Positions 25,087 to 52,911 of a stretch of DNA of 64,000 nt are shown here, one piece after another. Numbering within the stretch: the stretch's first letter is position 1; the number at the start of each line of letters is the position of its first letter. The stretch is from Cenarchaeum symbiosum A (GTDB lineage Archaea; Thermoproteota; Nitrososphaeria; Nitrososphaerales; Nitrosopumilaceae), in contig DP000238.1 in assembly GCA_000200715.1 (NCBI GenBank), forward strand, positions 1,970,849-2,034,848. The letters are read 5' to 3'. The notes under the pieces are model-generated. The model was not told the DNA's origin. It ran no database searches and was given only the letters and a program-made list of their open reading frames with translations. A program made the translations under genes and the position numbers.

Positions 25087-25134
25087 CTTCGAGCACAACA
25101 TCATACTTTTAAATCACTTTTAGTTTTTTCCAGC

Positions 25135-25850: not shown

Positions 25851-25865
25851 TTGACCTGTACTGCC
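25851..25865 (+). promoter_or_regulatory. Upstream element, array gene 7 (right half degraded)
   Basis: TTGACCTGTACTGCC: the left half TTGACCTGT is identical to that of gene 1, the right half is not TCAA. It lies 66 nt before ATG 25917. Confidence 0.4.
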
Positions 25866-25916
25866 GCTGATGCCATGCTGAACAAGGAATATTAACAAAT
25901 ATGTCATAAATTCTGC

Positions 25917-36375: not shown

Positions 36376-37751
36376 TGGCGAATATCACGTTTACCGTTCC
36401 CCCTGTTCTGAACGGCGGCACGGAGAAGAAAATCCCAATGTCCGCGGGTACTCTCAAGGAGGCCTTTGATGCCGTGTGTAAAGACATGGGGGAGGACTTT
36501 GGGCGGCGAGTACTTGAAAAGGACGGCACTCCGCGCTCGCTGATCAACGTGTATGTAAACGGCAAGAATGCGCGGTTCTCGGGCTGGATGGATACTGCAT
36601 TCAAGGACGGCGATGACGTGTATCTCTTGCCTGCGGTGGCGGGGGGCTCCGAGATGTCCCGCAAGGAGATGGATAGGTATTCCAGGCAGATCATGCTAGA
36701 TAGCATAGGCTATGAAGGACAGCTCAAGCTGAAAAACGCCCGGGTCTGCGTGGTGGGAGTAGGAGGCATAGGGAACCCGATAGTCACCAGGCTGGCTGCC
36801 ATGGGTGTTGGAAAGCTCCGCATAGTGGACAGGGATGTCATAGAGCTGTCTAATCTGCACAGGCAGACCATGTATGAGGAGAGTGACGTGGGCAGGGTAA
36901 AGGTAGAGGCTGCAGCCGAGAAGCTGCGCAGGCTCAACTCCGACGTCAAGGTAGAGCCAATGGCTGTCTCGATAAGTGAGAACAGTGCACCTGATGTTGT
37001 GGAGGGGTGTGATGTAGTGGTGGATGCCTTGGATGGCGTGGCTGCAAGATATGCACTGAACAGGGCATGCCTTACCAAAAAGATACCGTTTGTAACGGGC
37101 GCGGCGGTTGGCACCTCCGGACAGGTCTTTACCATACTGCCAAGGGAGACTGCATGTTATAACTGCAGGTTTCCGGCTTTGGGGGAGGGCGACGTGCCCG
37201 CGTGTTCCATAGAAGGTGTACATCCGTCGATACTCTCCATAGTGGGGGGAATCGAGGTGGCCGAAACCGTGCGCGTGGTACTGGGAAAGAAGCCCGACCT
37301 AGCCGGTCGCCTACTGCACATAGACTTGGATCCGCTGAGTTTTTCATTCGTAGATATAGCTCGGGAGGAGCAGTGCCCAGTGTGCGGCCCGGGAGTTATG
37401 GTGATAGAAAACAGCGGCACAAGCGTAAAGGAAAGTACCTCTGTGGAAGCCAACAGAGAAATGGTGGTAGAGGAGCTCTGCGGCAGGGCTGGCGGAAAGC
37501 GGACCTTCTCTCTGACCCCGGGTAGGGTATTTGAGATTGATGTGGATGGCATAACCCGAGCCGCGTCGGCGCGGGGCTTTCGTGTAGAGGACCAGGGAGA
37601 ACTGGGCCTATCCGTGAGGACGGACGATCTCTCAGTGAGCTTCATGAAGAGCGGCTCGGCAATGGTGGTAGGCACCAAGGATGAGGACGAGGCGAGGAAT
37701 CTCTACAATAATTTAGTAGGTAAGGATCAGGTGATAAGATCCTCCCACTAG
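36375..37751 (+). CDS. Ubiquitin-like (MoaD/SAMP) domain fused to an E1/MoeB-like adenylyltransferase
   Basis: 458 residues in three parts. Residues 1-91 are a beta-grasp MoaD/ThiS-like domain ending in Gly90-Gly91 (YLLPAVAGG), normally the free, activated C-terminus. Residues 97-340 are an E1-like domain: RYSRQIMLDSIGYEGQLKLK, ATP loop VVGVGGIGNP, RIVDRDVIELSNLHRQTMY, zinc cysteines 261/264 (CYNC) and 334/337 (CPVC), and candidate catalytic Cys277 in PACSIEGV. Residues 380-458 are a small extra domain. It should activate sulfur carriers for molybdopterin, thiolation or protein modification. The fusion means the carrier tail is not free unless cleaved, or that the domain acts in cis. The start overlaps the thrC stop. 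Confidence 0.87.
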   Translation: MANITFTVPPVLNGGTEKKIPMSAGTLKEAFDAVCKDMGEDFGRRVLEKDGTPRSLINVYVNGKNARFSGWMDTAFKDGDDVYLLPAVAGGSEMSRKEMDRYSRQIMLDSIGYEGQLKLKNARVCVVGVGGIGNPIVTRLAAMGVGKLRIVDRDVIELSNLHRQTMYEESDVGRVKVEAAAEKLRRLNSDVKVEPMAVSISENSAPDVVEGCDVVVDALDGVAARYALNRACLTKKIPFVTGAAVGTSGQVFTILPRETACYNCRFPALGEGDVPACSIEGVHPSILSIVGGIEVAETVRVVLGKKPDLAGRLLHIDLDPLSFSFVDIAREEQCPVCGPGVMVIENSGTSVKESTSVEANREMVVEELCGRAGGKRTFSLTPGRVFEIDVDGITRAASARGFRVEDQGELGLSVRTDDLSVSFMKSGSAMVVGTKDEDEARNLYNNLVGKDQVIRSSH

Positions 37752-37844
37752 TTCTGTCTTAAGGTTAGACAGTTCTCAAACAGGAATGTTGCACAACTCG
37801 GCTAAGAGGTCGGTGTGCTATCACCACCCTCATGCATTATGTGC

Positions 37845-38024
37845 TCATGGCCACAAACCGGTTGTAGACCAGCCCGCCTTGCCCAAGTTCATCCCAGCCG
37901 GTCCCCTGTCCCAGTTCGGCTTATAGGCGTCGTTAATCGGGTCAACAATTCTATCGACGGGATTGTAGTTGTATATGACACATTTCATAATTTCTTCATA
38001 ATCTAGATTAAAAATGAATAGCAT
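37845..38024 (-). CDS. Small hypothetical protein downstream of the repeat-protein gene
   Basis: A 59-residue frame (MLFIFNLDYEEIMKCVIYNY, later PINDAYKPNWDRGPAGMNLG and ending STTGLWP) on the same strand and 10 nt after the stop of the 890-residue protein. Amino-acid composition is protein-like with abundant Tyr, Asn and Trp. It could be a small third gene of that operon or the C-terminal relic of a larger gene. No promoter of its own is seen. Function unknown. Confidence 0.4.
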   Translation of the reverse strand: MLFIFNLDYEEIMKCVIYNYNPVDRIVDPINDAYKPNWDRGPAGMNLGKAGWSTTGLWP

Positions 38025-38034
38025 GGATTGTAAG

Positions 38035-40707
38035 TCATCTATTCGTTAAATTACTCCTAGATAGTTTCAGTAGTTTTAGAGATGGAATAATTTTGCTCCA
38101 CACATTTCTATTAGTGTCCAAATCATAGATTAATTGAGTTATTATTCTCCGATCATTTTTTGATAAATGAGTGCCAAATTTGAAAATTTCTCTCAAACAT
38201 CTTCCTAAAATAATACGATTATTTGTATCTACCATTATTTTTACAGTATGTATCCATTTTTCGAAAATTATGGAATTGGATTCAGGTCCACTGAAGATCT
38301 TGGTTATACCTAGGAATAAAAATTTATACCACGCTAAATCTTTAATCGAATGTAATATATCAATGAATTGTCTTGATATGTCTTCATTGTCATCTGTATT
38401 GGATAACAGTTTATCCAACATTTTACGGAATGCATCTGGCATTATAATACATTGTAGCTCAAGTATCTCTGCACGCAAATCACTCGACATTTTATTGAGA
38501 AAAAATTCTGATAGTTTATCATTTTGATCTAAATTTTCATGAAAAAATGTCATTGACATTTTTCTGTGTAGATTTTTGAATATGAGATCGGAGTGTCCTT
38601 CCGTGATTTGAGTATCAAGTTCAAGTAGCTCATCTAAGCAATATTGCATAATCGGAAAATCTGAATCATTCCATGTTTCTATTTTATTCATCCATATGTT
38701 GGTTAATGTGGGATCTGGTATATCCAAAGGATAATAGATCATTCGTATGAAAGAATCAAGAAAGCCGGGTAAAGATAATTCTCTGAATGATTGCAAAAAT
38801 GATGTAATTCTTTTAGATAGATCTTTTCCAGATTCAATGTTTAATATTATATCATTTAGCTCGGATCTAAGCTGATTGTTCATTCCAATACGCTGCTGGG
38901 CAGGTATTTCTGCCCGTCTATCTTCTACAGTTCTAGCATCTAATTCTCGTATCATCTTAAGACATTCAAGAACTGTTTGTGCATTATTCACATTTGTCAT
39001 TTGTATCATTAGATTCATCCAATTTGTAATTATTGCGGGTTTATGTACGATTCCACTGTACGTATTCTGTATGAACGATTTCAAAAATTCTTTTGATGCT
39101 GTCTCACTGACCCAGTTAAAAAATGGAATAATATCATTCCACACATCTTTATTTTCCTCCAGACCGGATATTAGATAACTCAATTCCTTTTCTTGTTCAT
39201 CTGTCGCCGAAAAATAAAACTCATCAATATTTCTGAGTCTGGTATTGCTAGATAAGACATTTTTTATCTTTTTAAGACATTCAACTGTAAGTGACGTATC
39301 TTTGGCATCTATTAACGAGTTAATATCGCTCATCAATTTTTGACTATTTTCTGTTAGATAGAGTTTTATCGCAATTGTTTCAAATGTATACAAAAAATTT
39401 ATTTTTCTTATTGATTGTAGAAATGGAATAATTTCTTCCCAAGAATCATTTTTTTGAGTTAGATCATTAATTATAACAGATAATTTTTCTTGCATATTTG
39501 AATCCATCATGATATTTCCATCTCTTATTTTCATCAAACAATGTAACATAGTTTCTTTATCCTTATCGCGAATTATTGATTCAATATTACTAAACCATGT
39601 ATCAAACAATCCATGCTTATTTATAGAATCAAAATCGTAGAATACGCTTGAATATACTATAAGAAATGCCGATCGATAATTTTTTCTATATGCTTGGAAA
39701 AATGGAATTACTCGATGCCATATATCCTTATTATTTTTTAAATCGTGTAATAAGTCGGATAATTTACGACGATTATCAGCACTAATTACCACTTGTATAT
39801 CATGAACTTTCTCCAGACAATATTTCACAATATCGCGTTTTCTGCCATTAACCATAGAACTCATACCGGCAATCCAAAGTTCTGCAATACGATTGTCAGA
39901 TATTTCATAGATTGACGATTTCAAGAATTCGGATAACCATACTTGATTGTTAATGTTCTGCACACTGTTTAACAGAGTCTCTATTGCAATTGTGTGTTTG
40001 GTATCACTATTTGCCAGATGTAAATTATTCATCATGCTATTTATTCCCATTTTAAAAATAGTTAATTGATTTTTTTCTTTTGCATTATCTAATATCATAT
40101 TCCATAATTCTATAGGTCTGGGAGCAACAATGGTGTTCATTAGTGATATATCCTTATTTGGTGATCTTTCTAATAGCCTTGTTCTTTGATCGATGGTTGC
40201 AATTTCACTATTCACTACTACTGGATAATCTATAGATTGAACATCAATGTCAGGAAATGCGTAATCTCCAAGGATGCTCAAATAGTGCAATTGACATTCT
40301 GTATTATTTTCATCTATTGCCAAACTTGTCAATAGTGATATTTTACTATGTAGAAAAGCTCTTGTCCAGTACGTATCATCCCAGGTGAGACGATTTTTCA
40401 ATTGAGTGGAGTAATATTGCATACCATCTCGTACGTAGTGATTTTTCTTACTTAGAATAGATTGTTCCATCATAGAATACCAAACATCAAACATTACACT
40501 ATGGTAATTCGGACTTAATAATTCCAAAGGAGTTGGAATAGGATCTTTGAAATTAGAAAACTCCTTCATAAATACTGAAACACATAGATCACGATTATTC
40601 CGTACACAGGCCAGCATAACTTCTCTGATATAAAGTAAAAAATGATTTTCGGCGTGCTCTCTACGTCTAACATAATATTCGTCATTTACACTCAATTTCT
40701 TTATCAC
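38035..40707 (-). CDS. Large AT-rich alpha-helical repeat protein
   Basis: 890 residues, not assigned to a family. A motif of the form L-x2-LI-x-DL-x3-K-D-x-W-x2-IIPF-x-QS-x-R recurs at about residues 317, 410, 510, 618 and 857 (for example LHDLKNNKDIWHRVIPFFQA, ISGLEENKDVWNDIIPFF), with period about 93-108 (857 lies two periods after 618), each followed by helices ending in CLKKI/CLMKI. This is an alpha-solenoid built from at least five units. The coding DNA is strongly AT-rich compared with the core genome, suggesting transfer. The GTG start overlaps the upstream membrane gene by 4 nt (GTGA). The C-terminal end of that gene resembles part of the same repeat, so the two may once have been one chain. 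Confidence 0.75.
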   Translation of the reverse strand: MIKKLSVNDEYYVRRREHAENHFLLYIREVMLACVRNNRDLCVSVFMKEFSNFKDPIPTPLELLSPNYHSVMFDVWYSMMEQSILSKKNHYVRDGMQYYSTQLKNRLTWDDTYWTRAFLHSKISLLTSLAIDENNTECQLHYLSILGDYAFPDIDVQSIDYPVVVNSEIATIDQRTRLLERSPNKDISLMNTIVAPRPIELWNMILDNAKEKNQLTIFKMGINSMMNNLHLANSDTKHTIAIETLLNSVQNINNQVWLSEFLKSSIYEISDNRIAELWIAGMSSMVNGRKRDIVKYCLEKVHDIQVVISADNRRKLSDLLHDLKNNKDIWHRVIPFFQAYRKNYRSAFLIVYSSVFYDFDSINKHGLFDTWFSNIESIIRDKDKETMLHCLMKIRDGNIMMDSNMQEKLSVIINDLTQKNDSWEEIIPFLQSIRKINFLYTFETIAIKLYLTENSQKLMSDINSLIDAKDTSLTVECLKKIKNVLSSNTRLRNIDEFYFSATDEQEKELSYLISGLEENKDVWNDIIPFFNWVSETASKEFLKSFIQNTYSGIVHKPAIITNWMNLMIQMTNVNNAQTVLECLKMIRELDARTVEDRRAEIPAQQRIGMNNQLRSELNDIILNIESGKDLSKRITSFLQSFRELSLPGFLDSFIRMIYYPLDIPDPTLTNIWMNKIETWNDSDFPIMQYCLDELLELDTQITEGHSDLIFKNLHRKMSMTFFHENLDQNDKLSEFFLNKMSSDLRAEILELQCIIMPDAFRKMLDKLLSNTDDNEDISRQFIDILHSIKDLAWYKFLFLGITKIFSGPESNSIIFEKWIHTVKIMVDTNNRIILGRCLREIFKFGTHLSKNDRRIITQLIYDLDTNRNVWSKIIPSLKLLKLSRSNLTNR

Positions 40708-41399
40708 GCGATTATAGATACAAAGATGTCTTGTAATCCCTTAGTGAAAAGAGTAACGTTATACGTCTCAACTGCCTTCAACATTATTTGTTCCCATTCG
40801 TTAAATCTCTCACTACCTCTTGTTGAAAAATATTCTATGTCGGGTATTGTTTCTATTTTTATCCGTGTTTCTATTTTTTCTATTATTTCTTCCATTACTT
40901 CTAAAGGTTGTAGTCTGTAGATCATATGATATACGTAACCTACAAGGTATACAAGAGAAAATCCAGTTCCTAAAAATACAAATGGTATAAACTTTCCTGG
41001 TTCGGTTATTGATGTTATAATAATGGGAATAATACTAAATGCAATTAGACTTATGAAAATTATAACAAAACCATATACGACCCTATGGTTCATTTGTTTT
41101 ATGAGTGCGATTACTGTATATGACTGAGCACGAAACTGTATCCCCAGCAATGTTGCTCCTAATGTAACTGCTAGAGTGGTAACTAGTATTTCCGTATTTA
41201 TAACTAGAAGATTTATTGCGTGTTTTTCTTTCATGAATTCTATATGGGTGAAATATAGAAATATCATAATATCAAGAACGATGAAGAAAAACAGAAACCA
41301 GCTCCATATTGAACCTCCACGGAACATTCGTGGAGGTTTATTATCACTGTAACCTGATCGGATAATTTTGTCCTTTATATCCTCGTAATACTGCTTCAA
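40704..41399 (-). CDS. Four-helix membrane protein paired with the repeat protein
   Basis: 231 residues with hydrophobic segments near 31-51 (IWSWFLFFFIVLDIMIFLYF), 64-86 (LLVINTEILVTTLAVTLGATLLG), 107-130 (VVYGFVIIFISLIAFSIIPIII) and 138-160 (FIPFVFLGTGFSLVYLVGYVY), then a cytoplasmic helical tail (EVMEEIIEKIETRIKIE and NEWEQIMLKAVETYNVTLFT). The tail resembles the helical units of the following 890-residue protein. AT-rich throughout. Together they look like a membrane-anchored solenoid system; a defence role is conceivable given the island location but is unsupported by any catalytic motif. Confidence 0.7.
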   Translation of the reverse strand: MKQYYEDIKDKIIRSGYSDNKPPRMFRGGSIWSWFLFFFIVLDIMIFLYFTHIEFMKEKHAINLLVINTEILVTTLAVTLGATLLGIQFRAQSYTVIALIKQMNHRVVYGFVIIFISLIAFSIIPIIITSITEPGKFIPFVFLGTGFSLVYLVGYVYHMIYRLQPLEVMEEIIEKIETRIKIETIPDIEYFSTRGSERFNEWEQIMLKAVETYNVTLFTKGLQDIFVSIIA

Positions 41400-42271
41400 A
41401 CTTCTAAGTTGGTTTATATTTCATGTTTATTAGTGGTCGTATAAGTATCTATACTCTTTTGATAAAGTCTAAGTTTCTACTGCGATCTACGTATCTATCT
41501 CTTCATAATCATCATGTTTCGCTTCATCTGCGAAATATTCACGACATAGATGCTGGATATTTTCCATCTTAGTCCTTTTGTATCTGCTCTACTGCCCCCT
41601 TCTCCTACGATCAACCTAAATGTTCTATTAGCCACGTTATTAACTGGAGATGTGCTGGAATGGGCCTGGGGGTTAAACGGCTTAGCCTTGACGTTCTCTG
41701 ACTTGTAAATTTGATACACATCGTTTTGTAGACCTTTTGACCGTGTATCTTCGAGCTTGTGCTCTGGGCCATACTATGTCCCTGTGCGGCCTCAGATATG
41801 GTTTCTCTACCCCCAAGGAGCGCTGGCATGTCTAGTCACTGCGGAACAGCCAGATCTGGGCATTCTTGCCGCCATACCTATATCCGGCTTCTTCGTTCAC
41901 TGCCTTACCAGAGTCTTAAATCTCTGGATCTCTACCTTGTTCTCCAAGGCTATCCCTCTCGAGCTCTTGGACCATTACTTGGCAAACGACCCGATTCGCC
42001 CCTAGTTAACTATGGTCGTGCTTGTCCTGCAGTACTTTGAGCTAATTCCTATTCCCCGTCTAGAACTATTCACGCCTGACACACAGGCAAGCTACCCACA
42101 CAGTATGGCTCTGCAAGTGGGTTTAAACGGAGTTAACTAACTGGACCTTCTGTTGCTGGGCTAGTTTTGTGCCTAGAATGCCTTATGGCGTTAGATAGCT
42201 TGTCCTTATGAGAGTTTTGATACTAGAATCTTATATAAACGGAAAACCCTTATTAAGATAGTGGTGAGGGA
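41400..42271. other. Degenerate region with scattered coding-like fragments
   Basis: 872 bp without an intact gene. On the minus strand, short protein-like pieces in different frames (for example KAVNEEAGYRYGGKNAQIWL near 41840-41920, YKSENVKAKPFNPQAHSS near 41650-41710, ENIQHLCREYFADEAKHDDY near 41490-41560) are separated by stops, suggesting one or more decayed genes. Plus-strand frames here are not convincing. The promoter region of the next family A gene (CTTATATAAAC, 42230-42240) closes it. Confidence 0.4.
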
Positions 42272-42886
42272 TTGGAGAACTATATAGTTGCTAAAAGCAT
42301 AGGCGTGTATAACGTAGTTGCACTGATACTTCGAGCCAACCAACAAAATCCATGTGGACGGACCGTGATCCAAAAATTGACTTATTTCTGGTCTCTTTTG
42401 GTTTCGCCAATCAATGGTGTGTTTTTCGAACCGCATTACTATGGACCATACAGTTCTAGATTACAACGGGCTCTACACGAAATGACTTCGTATGCCTATC
42501 TTGTTGAAAATATGACTCCCGATTCTGTTTATAGGACTTATCATTACCAACTGTCTAACAATGGTATAGAACTCGCTTTACGCGCCTATGATATGTATAA
42601 GGATAATTTTGAGAAAATTCAAAAAATTATAAATGTGTGCCGAGACGATTCTGTACTACGCGCATACGAACTTTCATTAGCTGCAAAAATATTCTATATA
42701 TCGGATAAAATGGATGTGGGGAAAATCTCTCCCATCCCCAAGAACACTACCGCAATCATTAGTGCTGCTACGAAATACGGTTGGAATATGACTCAAACGG
42801 AAGTAACTAAAGGATCTAAAATCCTAAGCAAGCTTACAAGTATGTATCCACCTCTTCACCAAGGACAAAACTCCCTCCCGGACTGA
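42272..42886 (+). CDS. Array family A protein, distant member 8 in the AT-rich island
   Basis: 204 residues, with all the core motifs of the 21-26 kb array: VVALILRANQQNPCGRTVIQKLTYFWS, FFEPHYYGPYSSRLQRALHEM, YHYQLSNNGIELALRA, the Cys helix IINVCRDD, and KYGWNMTQTEVTKGSKILSKL. It is closest in pattern to members 6 and 7. The DNA is AT-rich, unlike members 5-7, and the upstream TTGAC-type element is not preserved. The TTG start is in frame, with CTTATATAAAC (42230-42240) a little far and CTTATTAAG (42249-42257) nearer. It probably moved with, or into, the island separately from the array. Confidence 0.68.
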   Translation: MENYIVAKSIGVYNVVALILRANQQNPCGRTVIQKLTYFWSLLVSPINGVFFEPHYYGPYSSRLQRALHEMTSYAYLVENMTPDSVYRTYHYQLSNNGIELALRAYDMYKDNFEKIQKIINVCRDDSVLRAYELSLAAKIFYISDKMDVGKISPIPKNTTAIISAATKYGWNMTQTEVTKGSKILSKLTSMYPPLHQGQNSLPD

Positions 42887-43239
42887 CATGCTCTGTTTTT
42901 CCCACCCCAAATATCATGTGATAACACTATCCCTGATAACCTGACGCACAGCTGTGCAGCATACTCCACAACCTGAACCGTGACATAATACGACCTGGAA
43001 GACTTGACTGTGGGGGCCGCGGCAACACTCCGCGTAAGGGAGCTACCACTCGGTGGGCCCCTCTGGGACACATTATCGACCCTACGGAGTATGTGTGAAC
43101 AGTAGTGCCACCTCGCCCCAAATCGAAAACATCCGTCGTACTTGTTACAAATGATCATCATATTCGGCGACAGGTGCTGAAGCGAAAAGAAATAGATTTT
43201 CCTACCTTTACGAACCTTCTGCTTGAGGGCTGTCCCACA
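42887..43239. other. Island boundary, no gene seen
   Basis: Sequence of intermediate composition with frames on both strands that lack protein character. The following base-composition change at about 43240-43260 marks the edge of the high-GC family B array. Confidence 0.4.
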
Positions 43240-43509
43240 CCTATGATGGGATCAATTCAGGTGGAAGGTTCGAGCGGGGCGGAGGTATTCAACAGGTACA
43301 TTTCGGGCTCGGGCAGCCACTTGGTGGACCTGACCCGGCAGATGCCCTACGGGGACCGCTGGACAGTAAGGTACCGCAGGGGCCTCGAGGGAATAGAGGG
43401 AATGCTCCCAGAAGCGGATATCTGGCCCACGTACAGGCGCAGCAAGGACTGGGCACTAAAGGCGCCCCGGAAGCGGGCGGCAAAACGCAGGCCTGCGGGG
43501 CGCGCCTAG
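43240..43509 (+). pseudogene. Truncated family B gene at the island junction
   Basis: The C-terminal part of a module-S protein: VFNRYISGSGSHLVDLTRQM, PYGDRWTVRYRRGLEGIEGM and LPEADIWP align with the conserved YMSGEGRYLE-x2-TR-x-LPDGRRWTI region of the intact genes downstream. Upstream of about 43240 the frame continues to 43105 but in unrelated, AT-richer sequence. The N-terminal two thirds, including the HTH-like part and the promoter, are missing, so it is probably non-functional and marks a recombination breakpoint. Confidence 0.6.
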
Positions 43510-43577
43510 AACGGTACTGCGCGCCGGCCCTGCACCGGCGGCAGCCAAAGGGTTCACACCATGCCCTGCCTGAAACC

Positions 43578-43587
43578 TTATAGATCA
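43578..43587 (+). promoter_or_regulatory. Family B promoter core, gene 1
   Basis: TTATAGATCA, 28 nt before the ATG at 43606. The same ten bases (one mismatch in gene 3) stand 28-29 nt before all five family B genes. Confidence 0.65.
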
Positions 43588-43605
43588 TCTGATCCCCCAT
43601 CCCGC

Positions 43606-45426
43606 ATGAAAAAGCGAAAGGCCGCGCACAAGGCCCGAGAGAGCGGGCTCAAGACGCGTGACATTCTCGGAATAGATCTTCCACCCAAGCCAGGGGATGA
43701 GGCCGATCACAGGCTGCCTGTGCGGCATGTCCTGATTGCTGTCCTCATGAGGATCAAAGGGAGGATGTCGCGCGAAGATCTTGGGGAGCTCCTGGGAAAC
43801 GGGGCCGCACTGTGGTACACCAATCTGATACTGCAGTCGGGCTCGAAAATGCCCGACCACCCAGCGATTGCAGAGGAGACAAACCGCGGGGCAGGCGGCA
43901 TAACCCACACCAGGGAGCTGTTCCTTGAATGCCTGTCCGTGCCGCTGGCGGGCGGCGGGGCTAGCCACAAAAAGGTGCTCATAGTGGCAGACGCCGACAG
44001 CAGGATAATAGAAGCGGGCAAGGCCCGGGATGGTTCGACCCCGGATATAGAGATGGCCCGCATCCACCTTGCAGGGGACTCGCACCTTGCCTCTATCTGC
44101 GCGGCGCGACCGGGGGAGGATCCGTGCATCATAACGGCGGGCCCCGGCTTTGAGGGGCTCGGAGATGAGCTGCCCGGGACGGTCGTGCACACTTGCGGTG
44201 CGGCAGAATCCGACGGCGCGTCTGCGGCCGAGATGGCTCCCATTCAAAAAGCCATGAACAGGCTGCAGGATTATGCGATTCTGACGGAACCCTTTGATGA
44301 AACATCGCATGATCTGGACGTGACTGTGCAGTACATGGTAAACACTGCAAACACTTCGATAGGACAGGAATGGGACGGCAAGGAAGATTATGACGAGGTC
44401 CCGCGCGACATCGATGCCGCCATGCAGGGGCTCTTTGCAGCCTCCGGCCGCCTCCCCCCGGGACATTCCCGCACGCAGGATCTTGCGCCTGTCGAACCTG
44501 TAAAGGATGGCGGGGGCCCTGCCGGCCAGCTCTCGGACCCGTATGATGCCCTCAACAGAAAGGCGCTAGAGATAATGGACGGCCGGGGCATGCTTGAGCT
44601 GCTGAACCTCGAACCGGGTGATGACGGGGCAGTGCTGCTCTACGGCAGGGAGCCGCCCATGGGAGGCGGCCGGGTACCCTCTACTGGCGGCACCGTACTG
44701 GCCGCGATAATGCGGCTCAGGGGGATTACTACCGATGATGCAGTGGGTAGACTCTACGGGATGGATAAGGGCTCTACATCAAAGGAGATCAGGGCTGGAA
44801 TGAACACGCTATACAACATGATGACGTGGAAGCCCGAGAGCATGATGAAGGAGCTCAAGAGGGCCCGCCCCCACCGTATAACAAAGATCATAACAGGAAA
44901 CTGGCTGTACCTTGGATGCCTTGCTGTTCCCGTCATTCCCCGGGATAAACAGGACCGGCGCGGCGGCACCCCCAGAAAAGCCATGGTAATAGCCGACAGG
45001 ACAGGCCAGGTCATCGGCCTCGGCAAGAGCCGGCACGGGGGTTCAGATGCGGAGATGGCAAAGGAATACCTGGAAGGAAACGGCAGGCGCCTTGCGCAGC
45101 TGCTCCGGTCCCGTGCAGAGGACGGCTGGGCAGTGGTGGCAGGCGGCAGCTTTGAGGGGCTGGCCGGGATGCTGCCGGGTATTACCGTCCTCAATGTACA
45201 GGACATCCGGGATGATCCCGGGTTCTCTGGGATATGGGGGATACCTTATGATGCATCCGGCAGGCGTACATATCTCATGGAGAGGACCATGAACATGTTT
45301 GGCGACTATGGAATCCTTGAACAGTACGACGAAGACTGGTACGACCTGGACAGGACACTGCAGGTTGTCTCAGGGCTGGTAAACGCGCGGGCCGTATTCA
45401 TGCGCAGTGCTCTTGATATGCTGTAG
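43606..45426 (+). CDS. Family B protein 1: two tandem transposase-like modules (L-L)
   Basis: 606 residues. A basic N-tail (KKRKAAHKARESGLKTRD) precedes two copies of module L. Each has a helical HTH-like part (VRHVLIAVLMRIKGRMSRED; GTVLAAIMRLRGITTDDAVG), a strand pair (KKVLIVADADSRIIEAGKA; KAMVIADRTGQVIGLGKS), a glycine strand where DDE transposases have their second Asp (IITAGPGFEGL; AVVAGGSFEGL) and a final helix (DLDRTLQVVSGLVNARAVFM). The order recalls IS5/DDE_Tnp_4 transposases, but the catalytic acids are not at the expected places. No terminal inverted repeats are seen. Probably a domesticated, inactive derivative; the link is inference. Confidence 0.6.
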   Translation: MKKRKAAHKARESGLKTRDILGIDLPPKPGDEADHRLPVRHVLIAVLMRIKGRMSREDLGELLGNGAALWYTNLILQSGSKMPDHPAIAEETNRGAGGITHTRELFLECLSVPLAGGGASHKKVLIVADADSRIIEAGKARDGSTPDIEMARIHLAGDSHLASICAARPGEDPCIITAGPGFEGLGDELPGTVVHTCGAAESDGASAAEMAPIQKAMNRLQDYAILTEPFDETSHDLDVTVQYMVNTANTSIGQEWDGKEDYDEVPRDIDAAMQGLFAASGRLPPGHSRTQDLAPVEPVKDGGGPAGQLSDPYDALNRKALEIMDGRGMLELLNLEPGDDGAVLLYGREPPMGGGRVPSTGGTVLAAIMRLRGITTDDAVGRLYGMDKGSTSKEIRAGMNTLYNMMTWKPESMMKELKRARPHRITKIITGNWLYLGCLAVPVIPRDKQDRRGGTPRKAMVIADRTGQVIGLGKSRHGGSDAEMAKEYLEGNGRRLAQLLRSRAEDGWAVVAGGSFEGLAGMLPGITVLNVQDIRDDPGFSGIWGIPYDASGRRTYLMERTMNMFGDYGILEQYDEDWYDLDRTLQVVSGLVNARAVFMRSALDML

Positions 45427-45620
45427 GCCGCGGCTATACCGTGCCGCCGCATCTGCCGCCCATGCCACGGATGATTTCGCACAGGCCCCGGTCCGCGGAA
45501 CCATGGATGCCCGGCACTTGCAGGCCGCGGCATCCCGCATTCCCCGGTACCGCATGAGGGATCCCGCAGTCCGGCACAAAACACATCCCGACAAGAACAG
45601 GCGGGGACGTGCCCCTAGGT

Positions 45621-45630
45621 TTATAGATCA
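45621..45630 (+). promoter_or_regulatory. Family B promoter core, gene 2
   Basis: TTATAGATCA preceded by GGT, 29 nt before ATG 45650; continues into TTTGAT, similar to TCTGAT of gene 1. Confidence 0.65.
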
Positions 45631-45649
45631 TTTGATTTTACGCCCTCAC

Positions 45650-46639
45650 ATGGCAAAGCAGAAAAGGGAGCACAAGGCCGGAAAGAGCCAGGGGCCAAAG
45701 AATGCAGGAAAGGGACGCGGCTCCCCCGGGCCGCGGGATGATCTGTTCCGCGCGATGGGCGTGCCTGAAAACCCCGATCTGAAGGATTTGCTGCAGGTGC
45801 CCGCCGGCGCATCCCCGGGGGATAATAATGACGCAATATTCCGCAGGCTCGACGACGCCATCTCCGATTCTATCACCTTGGACCGGCTGATCGGGTTCCC
45901 AACGGACGGATTCCAGCACATCCTGGCCGGGTTTACAAAGGAGATAATGGGAGACGAATCCCGCCCGCTCTTCCGGGACGACACCCACGGCAGGTCCGGG
46001 CCGAAGATAAGCCACCTGTTATTGATGGTGCTGATGGACGTCAGGGGCGGGCCCGTGCAGTCCGGGATGGAGGCCATCTTTAATGTAGACCATGACACCG
46101 CACGGGAATATCTCAAATACGGCAAGTCCATGTGCACAAAAGTACTGGAGACGCCAGACAAGATAGTCGCGCGGATCATGGACGGTCTAGAAAGGGAGGA
46201 ATACGACGAGGTTGAACGGCTCGCCCCGGAATTTACGCTGCTTGTGGGATTCAAAGAGATGGAGTTTACCCTGGAAGACGGGACGCCAAAAACCGTCAAC
46301 GTACTGTTCATCATTACAATGCGGGATCTGATACTCGAGGGATGGCAGATCCCCCAGGACTGTACCGACAACATGGATGCGTTCGGGCGGTACGTCTCCG
46401 GCGAGGGAAGATACCTGGAGAAGATGACCCGGCAGATGCCCGATGGTAGACGCTGGACAATATCACATGATATAGACGACTGTGGCATCCTAAAACTGCT
46501 CCCCGAGGTGGCTGTCACCTCCCTGGACGGGCCTGATCATGCCGGGGCTCCAAGGCCCCGCGGCGTGGCCCGAAAGAGCAAGGCGCGCAGGGGGGATCAA
46601 AAGCCGCGGACAGGCGGCAGGGCGCGCCGGGCAAGCTGA
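45650..46639 (+). CDS. Family B protein 2: single module S
   Basis: 329 residues. Basic Gly/Lys N-tail (AKQKREHKAGKSQGPKNAGK), then the module-S signature: DGFQHILAGFTKEIMGDESR, PLFRDD, HLLLMVLMDVRGGPVQSGME, AIFNVDHDTAREYLKYGKSM, an acidic helix EREEYDEVERLAP, strands FTLLVGFKEMEFTLED and LFIITMRDLI, YVSGEGRYLEKMTRQMPDGR and RWTISHDIDD, and a basic C-tail (ARKSKARRGDQKPRTGGRAR). The HLLLM...GGPVQ...YLKYGKS part looks like the HTH of DDE_Tnp_4 proteins. The longer open frame from 45407 is rejected because the promoter lies inside it. Confidence 0.62.
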   Translation: MAKQKREHKAGKSQGPKNAGKGRGSPGPRDDLFRAMGVPENPDLKDLLQVPAGASPGDNNDAIFRRLDDAISDSITLDRLIGFPTDGFQHILAGFTKEIMGDESRPLFRDDTHGRSGPKISHLLLMVLMDVRGGPVQSGMEAIFNVDHDTAREYLKYGKSMCTKVLETPDKIVARIMDGLEREEYDEVERLAPEFTLLVGFKEMEFTLEDGTPKTVNVLFIITMRDLILEGWQIPQDCTDNMDAFGRYVSGEGRYLEKMTRQMPDGRRWTISHDIDDCGILKLLPEVAVTSLDGPDHAGAPRPRGVARKSKARRGDQKPRTGGRARRAS

Positions 46640-46703
46640 GGAAATGTGCGGCAAATGCACCCGCACGGCAAGCACAAGATCGCATTTTGTTAACTTGCGC
46701 CGC

Positions 46704-46713
46704 TTATAGATCC
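46704..46713 (+). promoter_or_regulatory. Family B promoter core, gene 3
   Basis: TTATAGATCC, 29 nt before ATG 46733; one mismatch to the other four copies. Confidence 0.6.
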
Positions 46714-46732
46714 CCAAGATCCCTCCCCGTAC

Positions 46733-47971
46733 ATGTACACAGAGGAGAGGGCCGAGCTCGAAAGGCTCAGGGCCAAAAACAAGAGACTGAAGGCAGGGCT
46801 CAAGAGGCAGAAGGCAGAGATCAGAAGGCTGGAGGCCAGAAAGAAAATGCAGGATGCCCAGATAAGGCAGCATGACGACCTGGTGGCCCGGATGCGTACC
46901 ATGCTCGGCATTGGGGCAGAAGTGCTGGAAATGATCGAAAAGCCCGACCTGAAGAACCTGATGTTTCCGAACCCCGCCAGAAAGGAATCAAGGGCGCGCA
47001 TACACGATGTCATAGTCCGCGGGCTAGACGGCATGCTGGCCGACGGCGAGGACCTGCACGAGATCACCGGGTACACTGCAGGGGAGCTCCGGCACATGCT
47101 CGATGGATTCACAAAGGCCGTAATGGCCGACGAGTCCCGCCCGCTGTTTAATGGCGGCCCGGGGGAGCGCGGCATCAACCGGTGCAAGATGAAGATGGAG
47201 CACCTGCTGATTATGGTCCTGTTTCACGCCAGGATAGGCCCTGAGCAGGCCTGTCTGGCTGCCGCCTTCAACACAGACCATGAGACCGCGGCAAGGAACC
47301 TTGCATACGCAATGTCCGCGTATCTTCACGTTGTGGAGAGCCCTGAAGGTATAGTTGCGCGGCTGATGGATGCGCTTGACAGGGGAGCGTACGGCGAGGT
47401 CGAGCGCGAACTGCCCGGCCTTGCCCTGTTTATTACCAGTGCGAGGATCCCCTGTGAACTGCCAGACGATGACGACGACCAGCTGGGCAACCTGATAGAA
47501 CAGGCCAGAAAGGGCTGCTATGACGAGCTGGTCGTATCCGGCGGGCGGCACATAATAGGTGCCGTGGAGGCCCCCCCTGCCGGCACCGGCATCGAGGCGC
47601 TCGAACAGTACATGTCAGACAAGGGGGGATACCTCGAGAGGCTGACCCGGCCCCTTCCCGACGGGAGGCGCTGGACCATAGTGGCCGGCGCCGGCTTCCA
47701 GAGATTGGAGAGGCTGCTCCCCTGGGCGGACGTGATAACCCCGCACAAAAAACTCCGGAGGCGCGCGGTGTCTTTACAGCAGAGGGAACACAACCGTATG
47801 CTTGCAGACGGGCGCAAATCAGCAGAGCAGATGACCCGGGAGATTAAAAAATTCAAGCTGGCATGCGGCCCCGCATATGAGAATTTTGGGACAGGCGAGA
47901 TGCTTCAGCTTACCGCCGGCATGGTCAACTCGCATATGGACTGGAACGCAGGCACAGATTCTGGCAGATGA
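46733..47971 (+). CDS. Family B protein 3: module S with N-terminal coiled coil
   Basis: 412 residues. The basic tail of its relatives is replaced by a charged coiled coil (about 3-60, EERAELERLRAKNKRLKAGL and following). Then module S: RHMLDGFTKAVMADESRPLF, HLLIMVLFHARIGPEQACLA, AAFNTDHETAARNLAYAMSA, RGAYGEVERELPGLALFITS, YMSDKGGYLERLTRPLPDGR, RWTIVAGAGFQRLERLLPWA and a final helix EMLQLTAGMVNSHMDW. The late helix is present here but lost in gene 2. The coiled coil suggests oligomerisation. Catalytic acids of DDE enzymes are not evident. Confidence 0.62.
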   Translation: MYTEERAELERLRAKNKRLKAGLKRQKAEIRRLEARKKMQDAQIRQHDDLVARMRTMLGIGAEVLEMIEKPDLKNLMFPNPARKESRARIHDVIVRGLDGMLADGEDLHEITGYTAGELRHMLDGFTKAVMADESRPLFNGGPGERGINRCKMKMEHLLIMVLFHARIGPEQACLAAAFNTDHETAARNLAYAMSAYLHVVESPEGIVARLMDALDRGAYGEVERELPGLALFITSARIPCELPDDDDDQLGNLIEQARKGCYDELVVSGGRHIIGAVEAPPAGTGIEALEQYMSDKGGYLERLTRPLPDGRRWTIVAGAGFQRLERLLPWADVITPHKKLRRRAVSLQQREHNRMLADGRKSAEQMTREIKKFKLACGPAYENFGTGEMLQLTAGMVNSHMDWNAGTDSGR

Positions 47972-48041
47972 GCGGCACCCGGGGCGGGGATCTGCGCCGG
48001 CCCTGAATCGGCATCCAGGGGATCGCGCTATGCTTGAAACT

Positions 48042-48051
48042 TTATAGATCA
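48042..48051 (+). promoter_or_regulatory. Family B promoter core, gene 4
   Basis: TTATAGATCA, 28 nt before ATG 48070, preceded by GAAACT as in gene 1 (GAAACC). Confidence 0.65.
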
Positions 48052-48069
48052 TCCTGTCCCCCGTATCCC

Positions 48070-50166
48070 ATGAACGAGCGGAAGCGATCACACAGGGCGA
48101 AAAAGGCAAGGCGCGGCGCCGGCCCCTCCGCACGGGCCCCGGCCGCTGCCCCCGATGTTCCGAAAAACCCCTATCTGGAAAACCTGATAAAAGAGTGCTA
48201 TGCAGGCGGGGCCCCTGCTGTGCGCATGCGCAGAAGGGCGGCCATAAGCCTTGATACAGTACTTGATGAGCCCGCCGAAGTTGAGCGGCTAACCGGGCGC
48301 AAAATGGAGGATTTTCTGGACATACAGGTAAGATTACAAGGTAAGATGATGAGTGACAGGTCCCGCCCCATATTCCGCGACGACCACCGCTGTATATCTG
48401 ACGAAAGTACCGGGCTCGAGATAGGGCACCTCCTGCTGATGCTGCTCATGGAGCCCCGGGGCGGGCCTGTCCAAGACGGCCTTGCGGCCATCTTTAACAT
48501 GGATGGCAATACGGCGTCAGAATATCTGGAATATGGAAGGTCCGTCCTGAAAAAAGTGCTGACAGCACCGGAAGCGGCGCCTGCAGAACCGGATTGGGAG
48601 CTGTCCGACTCGGATTGGTCGCACGATAGAATAATGGATGCTTTGCACAGGGGCGCATACGACGAGGTCGAGCGCATTGCCCCGGATCTATTCCTGCTTG
48701 TCTCCATGCAAAAGACCTTTTACGATCCGGAGGATGAGCACTGGGGGCAGCACGCAGTCCCCCCTGACTCGCCCGACAGGCCCTACCACCTGCTGACGAT
48801 AATTACAAGGGCGTTTGAGACTATTGACGCATGGGCCGTCCCGCAGGACCATATCAGCAGGCTCAAGGCCTTTAAAAAATACCTGGAAGGGGACGGCAGA
48901 TACCTAAAGGAGCTGACCCGGAGGCTGCCCGACGGGAGGCGCTGGAAGATAGTATACGGCGGAAACCTCGGCGGAATGGAGGAGTTATTCCCCGAGGCGG
49001 ACGTGGAGCCCATAAACAAGCCCCAAAAGCGCACACCGCGGAAAAAACCCCATCCGGCTGAACGCAAAATACACAAGGGCCCAAAGGCGGCGCGCAGGCC
49101 CGGGGCCGGCTTTGGCGGACTCCAGAAATTGTTCCCCAGAGCGGATATCAACCCGGAGGGGACTGCAGGGCGCGCAGAGACAGAATATGGCAAAGACGGG
49201 GGCACTGGGTATGTGGAGGTAGAATACAACACTCCTGCCCCGGACCACGGCGGGCCCGTCATGTACAGCGACCCCGGCAATACCCTGCTGGATCTGACGT
49301 GCGGCAAGGGCATGCTGACCATTATGGGGCTCGAACCCGGGGAAGACGGGCAGATGCTGCTCGACGGCCGCGTGCCCCCGGGAAGGCCGCAGATTACTAC
49401 CGGCGGCGCCATGGCGGCCGTACTGTTGCAGCTCAGGGGAACTATCACTCTCGATGACATGGAAAAGTTCTATGGGATAAGCAGGAAGGAGGCGCTATCA
49501 GAGGTCCGCAGGGCGATGGACCTTTTACACGATTCACTGGCGACAAAGCCCGAGGATATAGCCGATGAGCTCAAAAAAGCGCCCGGCACGGGGATAAGCG
49601 GCGACCACCTGAACTTTGGATGCCTTACAGTTCCCGTCTGCCGGTGGAGGCCGCTGAGCGGGCCGCACAGAAAGGCCATATTTGTAGCCGATTCAAACAG
49701 CAGAATAGTCGGCCTAGGGGACAGCGTAGACGGGGACGCCGACAGAAGGGGCATGATACAGGGGTACCTGGCAGGAAAGGGAAGGCATCTTGCGCGCCTT
49801 ATACGGGATAGAAAGGACGACCTGACGATATACGCGGGCTCCCGCCTTGTCGAGCTGGAAGATGAGCTGCCGGAGAATCTGGTCAAAAGGTACATACGTC
49901 CAAAGGACCGCTCCGGGGGGATCCGCGGCAAGATAACCATGGAAAAGATGGCAGCGCATGCCGCCGGCAGGGACAAGGGGGTACTGAACAGGATCCTCGA
50001 CGCGCTTGAAGACTACAAGATACTAGAAAGGTCGTACGGCGACCGCAATGTCATAGTGGGGTCGTATGACGACGAATGGTACCCCCTGGACAGGACCCTG
50101 CAGGTGCTGTGCGGCATGGTGAACCTGAGGATGCAGATCATGCTGAGAAACCCTGATCCGGACTGA
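48070..50166 (+). CDS. Family B protein 4: composite of modules S and L
   Basis: 698 residues. Basic N-tail (NERKRSHRAKKARRGAG), module S (about 60-330: SRPIFRDDHRCISDES, HLLLMLLMEPRGGPVQDGLA, RGAYDEVERIAPDLFLLVSM, YLEGDGRYLKELTRRLPDGR, RWKIVYGGNLGGMEELFPEA), a basic linker with a partial repeat (GAGFGGLQKLFPRADINPEG), then module L (about 425-698: GGAMAAVLLQLRGTITLDDM, KAIFVADSNSRIVGLGDSVD, LTIYAGSRLVELEDELPENL, WYPLDRTLQVLCGMVNLRMQ). It links the two architectures of the array. No metal-binding acid triad is recognised. Confidence 0.62.
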   Translation: MNERKRSHRAKKARRGAGPSARAPAAAPDVPKNPYLENLIKECYAGGAPAVRMRRRAAISLDTVLDEPAEVERLTGRKMEDFLDIQVRLQGKMMSDRSRPIFRDDHRCISDESTGLEIGHLLLMLLMEPRGGPVQDGLAAIFNMDGNTASEYLEYGRSVLKKVLTAPEAAPAEPDWELSDSDWSHDRIMDALHRGAYDEVERIAPDLFLLVSMQKTFYDPEDEHWGQHAVPPDSPDRPYHLLTIITRAFETIDAWAVPQDHISRLKAFKKYLEGDGRYLKELTRRLPDGRRWKIVYGGNLGGMEELFPEADVEPINKPQKRTPRKKPHPAERKIHKGPKAARRPGAGFGGLQKLFPRADINPEGTAGRAETEYGKDGGTGYVEVEYNTPAPDHGGPVMYSDPGNTLLDLTCGKGMLTIMGLEPGEDGQMLLDGRVPPGRPQITTGGAMAAVLLQLRGTITLDDMEKFYGISRKEALSEVRRAMDLLHDSLATKPEDIADELKKAPGTGISGDHLNFGCLTVPVCRWRPLSGPHRKAIFVADSNSRIVGLGDSVDGDADRRGMIQGYLAGKGRHLARLIRDRKDDLTIYAGSRLVELEDELPENLVKRYIRPKDRSGGIRGKITMEKMAAHAAGRDKGVLNRILDALEDYKILERSYGDRNVIVGSYDDEWYPLDRTLQVLCGMVNLRMQIMLRNPDPD

Positions 50167-50239
50167 GGATGCCATGCATCTCTATTTTGTGATGTGTTTG
50201 CGATACCCGGGATAAGCCGCGGGATCATCCCCCGATGGT

Positions 50240-50249
50240 TTATAGATCA
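50240..50249 (+). promoter_or_regulatory. Family B promoter core, gene 5
   Basis: TTATAGATCA preceded by GGT, 28 nt before ATG 50268. Confidence 0.65.
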
Positions 50250-50267
50250 GCAGTCCCCCCATTATCC

Positions 50268-51281
50268 ATGACACGAAAGGCCGCACGCAGGCGCAAAGCA
50301 GGAATGGACAGACGGGATTCTGGCCGGGATGGTCCCGGGGGGCCGGCCGGGGATCCCATACAGGGCGACCTTGGGGACCTGCGGGCCTGGGGCTTTACCG
50401 GCAGGGAGAGTATGGGGGATATGCGCGAGGCGCTGATCGGCACGTTAAACCGCATGCTCGATGATCCAAAACAGATGCGCGAGGTGATCGCATGCAAGCC
50501 CGGCGGGTTTGAGCACATACTTGCAGGGTTTGCAGAAGAGATAATGAACGACCCGTCCCGCCCTATCTTCCGTGACGGCTCGGAGGTGGAGATGCGGCAT
50601 CTCCTGCTGATCATACTGTTGTATTTGCGGGGGATGCCCGTCCAGGGCGCCCTGGCTGTGATATTTGGCGTGACCCCCGGCACTGCTTCTGCATACCTTG
50701 GATACGGCATGACTGCGTGCCGCAGGGCCGTGCTCACCCCTGTCAAGCTGGCCGCGCGCATGCTTGACATGGTCAAAAATAAAGAGTACGAGGATCTTGA
50801 CCAGGTGGCGCCCGCCTATATGCTGTTTATCGAGCGGACGGATATCCCGTATACAAGGCTGGATGGCCGCACGAAAAGCGGGGCGGTCAGGGGGAGCCAC
50901 GTGACGCAGGATGTATTGGTCGTCTGCACGGGAAAGGCCAGGGTGGTGGCCATGGTCGAGATACCTTCGGGGGGCAGCCCGCTCGGGGCGCTGGCAGATT
51001 ACATGTCCGGAGAAGGCGGCTTTCTTGAGGAGATAACCCGGCCGCTGTCTGATGGGACGCGCTGGTCGATTGTTCCCAACGAGTGCTTTCGGGGGGACTT
51101 GGAAGGGTCTTTTCCGCGCAGGCCTGTTCATGCAGATCATGTAGAGCACGAGTATGCAGACGCGTATGAGACCGGGAACATATTCCAGTTGATGAACGGG
51201 ATAAGCAACTCGTACATCGAATGGGAGCAGAAAGCAGGGGAGGGGCCGTGGGCGGATGGCGCCATGGATGATTTGGAGTGA
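50268..51281 (+). CDS. Family B protein 5: single module S
   Basis: 337 residues. Basic N-tail (TRKAARRRKAGMDRRDSGRD), then GGFEHILAGFAEEIMNDPSR, PIFRDGSEVEMRHLLLIILL, YLRGMPVQGALAVIFGVTPG (the clearest HTH-like segment of the family), KNKEYEDLDQVAPAYMLFIE, VLVVCTGKARVVAMVEIPSG, YMSGEGGFLEEITRPLSDGT, RWSIVPNECFRGD and a final helix IFQLMNGISNSYIEWEQ. The strand RWSIVPNECF stands where DDE enzymes carry their second Asp. It is the last gene of the array and is followed by an AT-rich gap. Confidence 0.62.
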   Translation: MTRKAARRRKAGMDRRDSGRDGPGGPAGDPIQGDLGDLRAWGFTGRESMGDMREALIGTLNRMLDDPKQMREVIACKPGGFEHILAGFAEEIMNDPSRPIFRDGSEVEMRHLLLIILLYLRGMPVQGALAVIFGVTPGTASAYLGYGMTACRRAVLTPVKLAARMLDMVKNKEYEDLDQVAPAYMLFIERTDIPYTRLDGRTKSGAVRGSHVTQDVLVVCTGKARVVAMVEIPSGGSPLGALADYMSGEGGFLEEITRPLSDGTRWSIVPNECFRGDLEGSFPRRPVHADHVEHEYADAYETGNIFQLMNGISNSYIEWEQKAGEGPWADGAMDDLE

Positions 51282-51469
51282 TCATGCCTGCTTACAGGGG
51301 AAAGCCGACCGGGTAAGTAAAACGGCGTGGGGATATAACACCTACAGGTGACATTGGAACTAACAGCAGGTGGAGGAAAATAGCATTTAACGTCACGTTC
51401 ATTGTGCTGTATAACGTGTACGTACTGATTGTATCTGATATTGCTAAATATATTTGACAGGACTTAGTG

Positions 51470-52426
51470 TCAATTCATTATACTATTGTCAAAAAATTCA
51501 TCATGATTATCGATTTTGCCTTCTAAAAAATAATGATATTTTTTCTTACAATTGTTAAGATGTTTATATTCTATAAATAGTTTAAAATAATAACCACTTT
51601 TTACGAATTCGTCTCTACCCCACCTCATTTCTATTTTCCTACCATAACTAACGCTCTCGTTGACTCCCAATGAGTTTATGTTTTGAGTATCTTTGTCGTT
51701 ATTTCCCACATTGCCTATTGTAACTTCCTCTGCATTTTTTGCTTCTCGCATCGCGCGATTTCTAAGATCATCTGCTCTTTGTCTTAGATCTTTTACATCA
51801 TTACGCCGCCATATTTTTTCTTTTAACTGTATATTTTTCTTGCGTATACGATCAGCTTCATCAATCATATTCATTGCCTCTGTTTTTATCCCTCGCCATT
51901 TACTCTTCACATCTGTGGATGTAGGTTTTGCTTCCAACTGAAGTATTTTCCTATTCATTTCCTCTTCCGCACTAGTTGCTATCGCCTTAATCATGATTAC
52001 ATCAAAAGTGTGCATGTAGTCTATCAAAAAATGTTTGGGCTCCTTGAAAACTAAAAAAACTGTTTCAATATTCACGGCCGGAATGGACCCATAGTTTCTC
52101 AGTCTTATCTCTACTTTACCATCGGTTGTTCTGAATGGAGACTCATTCTCTGAAAAAACATCCCGACCAATAATGGGTCTTATGCGGGCAGTAATATCTC
52201 TCTTGAGATGCATTACGTAATATCCTGTGGCAGATGCCGCTCCTGCCGCAACTATTACTGCAAATAAAGGTGATGCAGTGATAGCTTTCTCCCACCATCC
52301 CAACATACCTTCTACCTGTGCAACCGATGTCATCACTTCTGATTGATTGCCGTCCTCCCCCATGACCATTCCTGTGTTATGCACGGCAGCCAATGCTAGT
52401 ATCAAGATAATCATGCCGCGGTACAA
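51470..52426 (-). CDS. AT-rich secreted/membrane coiled-coil protein
   Basis: 318 residues: an N-terminal signal-like segment (GMIILILALAAVHNTGMVMG), a second hydrophobic helix (about 52-72, PLFAVIVAAGAASATGYYVM), a beta-rich part (TDGKVEIRLRNYGSIPAVNI), and a long charged coiled coil (about 160-240, with EADRIRKKNIQLKEKIWRRN and LRQRADDLRNRAMREAKNAE), ending in a polar tail. The coding DNA is AT-rich like the 38-41 kb island. The TTG start at 52426 is about 29 nt from TTATATC (minus strand, 52451-52457); ATG 52414 is an alternative. It is divergent from the S-layer gene. No family recognised. Confidence 0.65.
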   Translation of the reverse strand: MYRGMIILILALAAVHNTGMVMGEDGNQSEVMTSVAQVEGMLGWWEKAITASPLFAVIVAAGAASATGYYVMHLKRDITARIRPIIGRDVFSENESPFRTTDGKVEIRLRNYGSIPAVNIETVFLVFKEPKHFLIDYMHTFDVIMIKAIATSAEEEMNRKILQLEAKPTSTDVKSKWRGIKTEAMNMIDEADRIRKKNIQLKEKIWRRNDVKDLRQRADDLRNRAMREAKNAEEVTIGNVGNNDKDTQNINSLGVNESVSYGRKIEMRWGRDEFVKSGYYFKLFIEYKHLNNCKKKYHYFLEGKIDNHDEFFDNSIMN

Positions 52427-52911
52427 TTAGCTCGCACCTGTGGGCATTAGGATATAACTTGTCTGAGTCCAAATGATGCAGGGATTCCACAGGACGTCTA
52501 ATTCACAACAAACAATCTCTGGACCTGCAGGATGGATCCTTGCCATTTCGGCAGGCCTGTCGAGCTCCCATCCGGCCTACCCTGACTGTTCTTATCTGCC
52601 TCAATACTCTTTTCCATCTGATCAATCTTGAGACTAAGAGATCTACTCTTGGTCTGCTTGGCACAGACGCTAGTAGACAATACGGCAAGGTTTACGTCGT
52701 TCACACTACTTGGCTCCTCAGAAGACCTCAGATCGCTACACTGTACGCCGATCCCAGTGTTTTTAACAGAGCAGGACATAGCATATTCAGGCATGGTACA
52801 CAGGGCCTATTCACACCTGGCAGGCCTCCAAAGGCCCAATTCGTGCCTAGAAGGCTGTACCATTTGTTCATTAGCCTTTTATACTCACAATCGAGAGCAA
52901 ATGACAATAAT
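52427..52911. other. Region upstream of the S-layer-like gene
   Basis: 485 bp without a supported gene. The S-layer frame is open back to 52540, but that extension is not signal-peptide-like, and the TATA element TTTTATAC (52877-52884) lies within it. On the minus strand 52498-52794 encodes a partly coiled-coil frame (SLKIDQMEKSIEADKN) with no promoter; it may be a relic. Confidence 0.4.

Follow-up and report, generated by a model that had tools for sequence, protein, structure and literature searches.

Probable domesticated transposases in Cenarchaeum symbiosum: a tandem, partly fused archaeal family of putative DNA-binding regulators

Why would an archaeon keep a row of open, transposase-like genes whose products lack the residues needed for catalysis? 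The question is raised by a locus of Cenarchaeum symbiosum A, an archaeon that lives in sponges, within a stretch of 64,000 nucleotides (positions 1,970,849 to 2,034,848 of the 2,045,086-base contig DP000238.1; here, "the window"). Its paralogous genes are assembled from two modules, S and L, which a preliminary description, made from the sequence alone, had read as non-catalytic descendants of DDE_Tnp_4/IS5-type transposases. Domestications in which a transposase loses catalysis are documented mainly in eukaryotes, e.g., plant ALP1, which derives from PIF/Harbinger (PMC4671723). Our full-text search of open-licence papers found no archaeal case, and no description of this transposase-derived family was found in the same literature.

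Results

The array and its paralogs

Positions 43240 to 51281 of the window contain five open genes (p1 to p5) and an S fragment (p0), all on the plus strand. The coordinates, module order (L-L, S, S, S-L, and S, plus a truncated S at 43240 to 43509), and motifs quoted in the preliminary description were all correct on re-checking. Likely true starts of p1 to p5 are at 43606, 45650, 46733, 48070, and 50268. In the list, D1 and D2 denote the positions of the first and second catalytic Asp.

43240..43509, + strand: p0, truncated S gene (ORF 43105-43509); C-terminal half, DRWTV...RYRRGLEG; Arg in the Asp2 position
43606..45426, + strand: p1, L-L fusion, 606 aa; D1 = Glu/Gly, D2 = Gly/Gly, Glu retained in the second module only
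45650..46639, + strand: p2, S, 329 aa; Lys/Arg-rich C-terminal tail; D1 = Gly, Asp in the D2 column (HDIDD), without the Glu helix
46733..47971, + strand: p3, S, 412 aa; N-terminal coiled coil of 58 residues; D1 = Thr, D2 = Gly, Glu retained
48070..50166, + strand: p4, S-L fusion, 698 aa; D1 = Ser/Gly, D2 = Gly/Gly
50268..51281, + strand: p5, S, 337 aa; D1 = Glu, D2 = Asn

BLASTP matches among the array genes reach E values down to 8e-57, far above chance. Matches of the fragment p0 to p2 (8e-13) and p4 (1e-12) are confined to the C-terminal half, and p0 is probably a pseudogene. Elsewhere, the genome also carries two further S genes, p6 and p7, as well as decayed relics. These two genes lie at 1.566 to 1.568 Mb, 450 kb from the array, next to a short S-layer-like gene, and across the two loci the paralogs are 23 to 53% identical. 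In the tree, p6 groups with p4S and p7 with p5 (support of 100/99 for each), as would be expected if the p4-p5 segment had been copied.

Descent from IS5-superfamily transposases

To relate the modules to known proteins, we compared their profiles with intact IS transposases of related archaea using hhalign. Both matched strongly (S, probability 99.5, E = 2.4e-23; L, probability 98.0, E = 2.4e-13). S and L also share homology with one another, and each spans the HTH and RNase H regions, although many S modules end early at the C terminus. Thus, the two modules of the preliminary description exist but are not distinct pieces, both being full-length relatives of the transposase by alignment and hhalign; a division into HTH-only S and RNase-H-only L modules was rejected on the same comparisons. 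The tree resolves S, L, and the intact IS transposases as three supported groups.

Direct Pfam matches of the array proteins all fell under the curated cut-offs, including a weak match of p3 to DDE_Tnp_4 (0.0076) and matches to HTH_Tnp_4 of the L part of p4 (5.3e-5) and of p5 (1.3e-4). The closest intact relative, from a congener (uncultured Cenarchaeum sp., OY282369.1, L078), matches DDE_Tnp_4 at 6.6e-21 and HTH_Tnp_4 at 3e-12 and is also matched by the NCBIfam IS5 models. AlphaFold2 gave a poor model for S (pLDDT of 63; best solved Foldseek match at E = 6e-3) and a fair one for L (pLDDT of 76, pTM of 0.77; best solved match Mos1 at E = 5e-4), with low global TM-scores for both. The best solved matches were Mos1 and other DDE transposases, which suggests, weakly for S and better for L, a related rather than an unrelated fold. 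A PDB sequence search with the S profile returned no relevant match. Collectively, the profile comparisons and the tree bear out the proposed DDE_Tnp_4/IS5-type ancestry and indicate that the array proteins descend from IS5-superfamily (HTH_Tnp_4 plus DDE_Tnp_4) transposases of the thaumarchaeal lineage.

Loss of catalytic residues

Alignment to intact relatives showed that the first catalytic Asp is lost in all nine modules, its place being taken by Gly (p2, p7, p1L2, and p4L), Ser (p4S and p6), Glu (p5 and p1L1), or Thr (p3). The second Asp is present only in p2 and p7 and the Glu only in p3 and the second module of p1; no module retains two of the three residues together. The D-D-E triad is retained in nearly all aligned relatives, broken copies included. 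The non-catalytic reading therefore held when the conserved acids were checked, with an intact triad in 0 of 9 modules. The description of the Asp2 strand as AGxGF, AGSRL, YGGNL, or PNECF is right for most modules and fails for p2 (HDIDD) and p7 (PDESF), where Asp is still in the column.

Broken relics of the wider family lie near 95.5, 1125, and 1145 kb of the genome. The 1125-kb relic retains D-D-E and the 1145-kb relic retains Asp2 and Glu, both in broken frames. The latter groups with p3 in a tree for which its sequence was joined from two frames, with one residue wrong. Because this relic, which groups with p3, retains Asp2 and Glu, some catalytic residues may have been lost repeatedly; a single inactivation event was not established, given this relic and the Asp2 retained in p2 and p7. 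The same relic carries DGRRWTI, which weakens the suggestion that S-specific invariant residues mark a newly gained function.

Retention of open frames and shifted conservation

All seven intact genes (p1 to p7) keep open frames, with no stop at a dS of ~0.9 or more, whereas simulated neutral drift of p5 by 0.25 substitutions per site introduced ~4 in-frame stops. Paralog dS is ~0.9 to 2.5, near synonymous saturation. Nei-Gojobori dN/dS ratios, which are approximate at such distances and moderate at 0.4 to 0.5, were 0.44 (0.32 to 0.59) for p5/p7, 0.40 (0.28 to 0.52) for p4S/p6, and 0.52 (0.37 to 0.68) for p1L2/p4L. These values point to purifying selection as what keeps the frames open. The usual pattern is inverted in this genome: relics with catalytic residues decay, and dead copies stay open.

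We also compared conservation scores by region between S paralogs and intact IS transposases. S scored higher in the pre-HTH helices (0.38 versus 0.28), the HTH (0.41 versus 0.36), and the linker (0.48 versus 0.29) and lower in the Asp1 sheet (0.23 versus 0.35) and the region after Asp2 (0.19 versus 0.35). The YMSGEG...DGRRWTI segment is also among the most conserved parts of S, unlike the profile of the intact transposases. None of the nine modules has kept the recognition-helix Gln that is conserved in the IS (Q140 of the congener's transposase), and thus the ancestral IS target is probably no longer bound.

A common promoter element

All seven intact genes, p6 and p7 included, carry [CT]TTATAGAT[CT] 19 to 20 bp before the ATG. 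Within the array, the elements are as follows.

43577..43586, + strand: p1 promoter element CTTATAGATC, 19 bp before ATG
45620..45629, + strand: p2 promoter element TTTATAGATC, 20 bp before ATG
46703..46712, + strand: p3 promoter element CTTATAGATC, 20 bp before ATG
48041..48050, + strand: p4 promoter element TTTATAGATC, 19 bp before ATG
50239..50248, + strand: p5 promoter element TTTATAGATC, 19 bp before ATG

A position 19 to 20 bp before the ATG is that of a TATA box and fits leaderless archaeal transcripts. The core TTATAGATC occurs 12 times in the 2.05-Mb genome versus 8 times for a reversed control; five of the occurrences are the array promoters, and two more are in the p6/p7 locus. The bases flanking TTATAGATC vary among copies and the paralogs are near synonymous saturation, so the extension beyond the TATA box looks constrained. 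Duplication could account for a common promoter element by descent; at the dS separating these paralogs, passive identity is unlikely. The promoter sequences suggest a shared operator at the TATA-proximal element.

One relative's IS begins with TAGATCTTATG, hence the temptation to read TTTATAGATC as an IS end. Its identification as a leftover terminal repeat was dropped because the end of the 95.5-kb relic is distinct: it reads TAGAGTCTATGCATATTG and lies ~70 bp upstream of the relic's TTATAGATC.

Mobility and genome context

An absence of terminal repeats had been noted at the outset, and searches of the 64-kb window agreed, finding neither ends like those of related IS (at up to 3 mismatches) nor end-to-end inverted repeats; a mobile IS array was therefore rejected. 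Near-identical scattered copies, a sign of recent mobility, are likewise missing among the diverged array paralogs. Several IS groups related to the array have recognizable ends. Elsewhere in the genome, we counted 13 end-like sequences versus 5 in the control, one of them perfect and adjoining the 95.5-kb relic. In the C. symbiosum genome, the parent IS survives as broken relics and end-like sequences, with no intact copy, whereas the congener has many copies, intact and broken; its closest IS is present in three near-identical full-length copies (100, 96, and 96%), alongside further intact groups.

No array was found at the orthologous position in the one congener genome examined. There, the orthologs of 35137-37751 (threonine-synthase-like and ThiF-like) directly adjoin a large S-layer-like gene, which defines the following segment.

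37752..52476, no strand assigned: array-bearing segment of ~15 kb, absent from the congener, between the ThiF-like and S-layer-like orthologs (upper bound approximate)

Besides the array, this segment carries two AT-rich genes, a DarG-like protein, and an unknown gene; with one congener compared, the difference reflects either a gain in C. symbiosum or a loss in the congener. Across 250 genomes of the family (Nitrosopumilaceae) and 400 of the class (Nitrososphaeria), matches outside C. symbiosum were ordinary IS transposases or their fragments, with no dead form among the readable matches. Within this set, the dead family was found in the C. symbiosum genome only, in keeping with the proposed expansion in one lineage. 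A scan of viral contigs gave one partial match only. PADLOC had no defence-system match for p3 or p4, and a defence system was rejected on this basis.

Discussion

Domestication of the array's transposases is well supported. The family has multiplied through tandem and segmental duplication, with L-L and S-L fusions in addition. IS5-type transposases bind the ends of their elements through the HTH and act as dimers. The loss of catalysis, together with the helical/HTH half, the coiled coil of p3, the Lys/Arg-rich ends, and the fused p1 and p4, fits dimeric DNA-binding proteins. The proteins may therefore bind DNA as dimers or pseudo-dimers: the helical/HTH half that they have kept would make the contact, and the dead RNase H half would hold the partners together. 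They would regulate transcription, most likely including that of their own genes, via the shared TTTATAGAT[C/T] element beside the TATA box. Judged from these sequences, the case for DNA-binding regulation by family members is evenly balanced, and autoregulation at the common promoter element is a tentative proposal. As a whole, we lean toward a tandemly expanded, partly fused, domesticated archaeal transposase family whose members serve as DNA-binding, probably autoregulating regulators.

A dead relative that still has its HTH and dimer surfaces makes a natural poison, and the proteins could instead be transposition repressors that bind related IS ends or poison active transposases, silencing the parent IS. 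The genome, which is without an intact IS copy, and the many copies of the congener would agree with this, as would a survey that counted 0 IS in the species (PMC6563490). The contrast, however, comes from one genome pair, and once active IS are gone there is little left to select for. The paralogs have also diverged, to 30 to 50% identity, unlike a set guarding one target, and the Gln kept by the IS is missing from all nine modules, which favors host regulators with changed targets over IS repressors. We therefore regard repression of the parent IS as unlikely. We judge the same of a co-opted anti-transposon system in which nine dead modules, some fused as single-chain pairs and all co-regulated from one TATA-proximal operator, either occupy the ends of related elements or form dead complexes and so hold these elements in check.

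Two other accounts appear less probable still. If the genes were old transposase copies nearing loss, with frames open by chance or recently, one would understand the truncated p0, the relics elsewhere, the lost C termini of several S modules, and dN/dS ratios that are moderate rather than low. Yet the upper bounds of these ratios stay at 0.52 to 0.68 in three pairs, seven genes have acquired no stop, promoter elements are identical at fixed spacing, and the copies that broke are those with catalytic residues. Alternatively, the ~15-kb segment may be a genomic island, and its transposase-derived proteins may work for that island, in copy control or targeting, and not for the host. Its absence from the syntenic place in the congener, its AT-rich genes and DarG-like protein, and the exceptional share of such islands in C. 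symbiosum (PMC4158269) speak for this, but p6 and p7 occupy an unrelated locus that has nothing else of the segment, and no integrase, replication gene, or element ends were identified.

The steps of transposase domestication appear together in one archaeal genome: relics with catalytic residues decay, and dead copies persist, duplicate, and fuse. The family also bears on how transposases are counted. C. symbiosum has been scored as lacking IS in the survey above and as enriched in transposases (PMC6790972), an enrichment seen by Pfam and not by COG (PMC7848895). Dead paralogs may explain part of this discrepancy, and transposase counts thus need not mean mobility. Transposase domestication is already known; the tandem, fused, co-promoted archaeal set is, as far as the open-licence papers searched show, a new form of it.

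Among known systems, truncated-transposase repressors such as the P-element KP protein are encoded by the element and keep its target. KP resembles the array proteins as a dead derivative that could retain DNA-binding and dimer surfaces; it differs in being on the element with its target kept, whereas the array family is diverged and off the element. IS5-superfamily transposases (such as L078 of OY282369.1) share with the array HTH and RNase H homology, domain order, and an N-terminal coil. Unlike them, the array lacks the triad, terminal repeats, and near-identical copies and has a tandem arrangement, fusions, and its own spaced promoter. ALP1 and ALP2 of plants are domesticated PIF/Harbinger transposases (PMC4671723, PMC7282668), and ALP1 has DGA in place of DDE (PMC4671723). 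ALP1 is the closest in kind to the array: the ALP proteins, too, derive from transposases, no longer move, and combine a degraded DDE triad with a conserved sequence. They are, however, eukaryotic, present in one or two copies, and subunits of a Polycomb complex, whereas the array is an archaeal tandem family with the HTH in the same chain and with fused modules.

Neighboring genes of the array

The ~15-kb segment that carries the array of transposase relatives and is absent from the syntenic place in the congener also contains the following genes.

38035-41399, minus strand: two AT-rich genes (30 to 36% GC)
42272-42886: DarG-like protein, adjoining the array, named from a match to the PADLOC DarG profile

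The DarG-like protein matched this profile at positions 168 to 291 (E = 8e-10), and the match corresponds to an antitoxin C-terminal domain, with the DarG macrodomain absent. One of the AT-rich genes encodes a repetitive, helical-looking protein of 890 aa that had no Pfam match, and the other encodes a membrane protein with weak likeness to DUF2254.

Elsewhere in the window lie an ORF row and two large genes.

21232-26486, plus strand: seven ORFs in a row, 183 to 218 aa each
52540-58080, plus strand: large S-layer-like gene
59478-63197, minus strand: large S-layer-like gene

A Pfam search of the seven ORFs gave no match; this row is probably what the preliminary description, which called the transposase-related array the second, had counted as the first paralog array. 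The S-layer-like genes are convergent and share 99% identity across their C-terminal ~360 residues, and another convergent pair at ~137 to 140 kb of the genome is 92 to 94% identical to the same S-layer-like query. Through such convergent repeats, surface-protein genes could undergo inversion or gene conversion.

Other copies and relics of the family

Two insertion sequence (IS) copies lie 4.4 kb apart, in opposite orientation, on the congener contig.

1191857: L091
1196300: L092

L091 has lost the first catalytic Asp (D to G) and retains the second Asp, the Glu, and recognizable ends; L092 had an equal search score. These copies possibly moved in trans or were duplicated. An IS relic of about 0.8 kb (L101/L132; genome position 95.5 kb) carries an internal deletion; its left end is perfect (TAGAGTCTATGCATATTG), and of its transposase a C-terminal remnant persists. 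In genome G110, a 251-aa ORF (L024) combines a long coiled coil with an IS5-type transposase that is represented by its C-terminal half, in which the second Asp and the Glu are retained; the HTH and the first Asp are missing. This domain arrangement may represent another case of transposase reuse.
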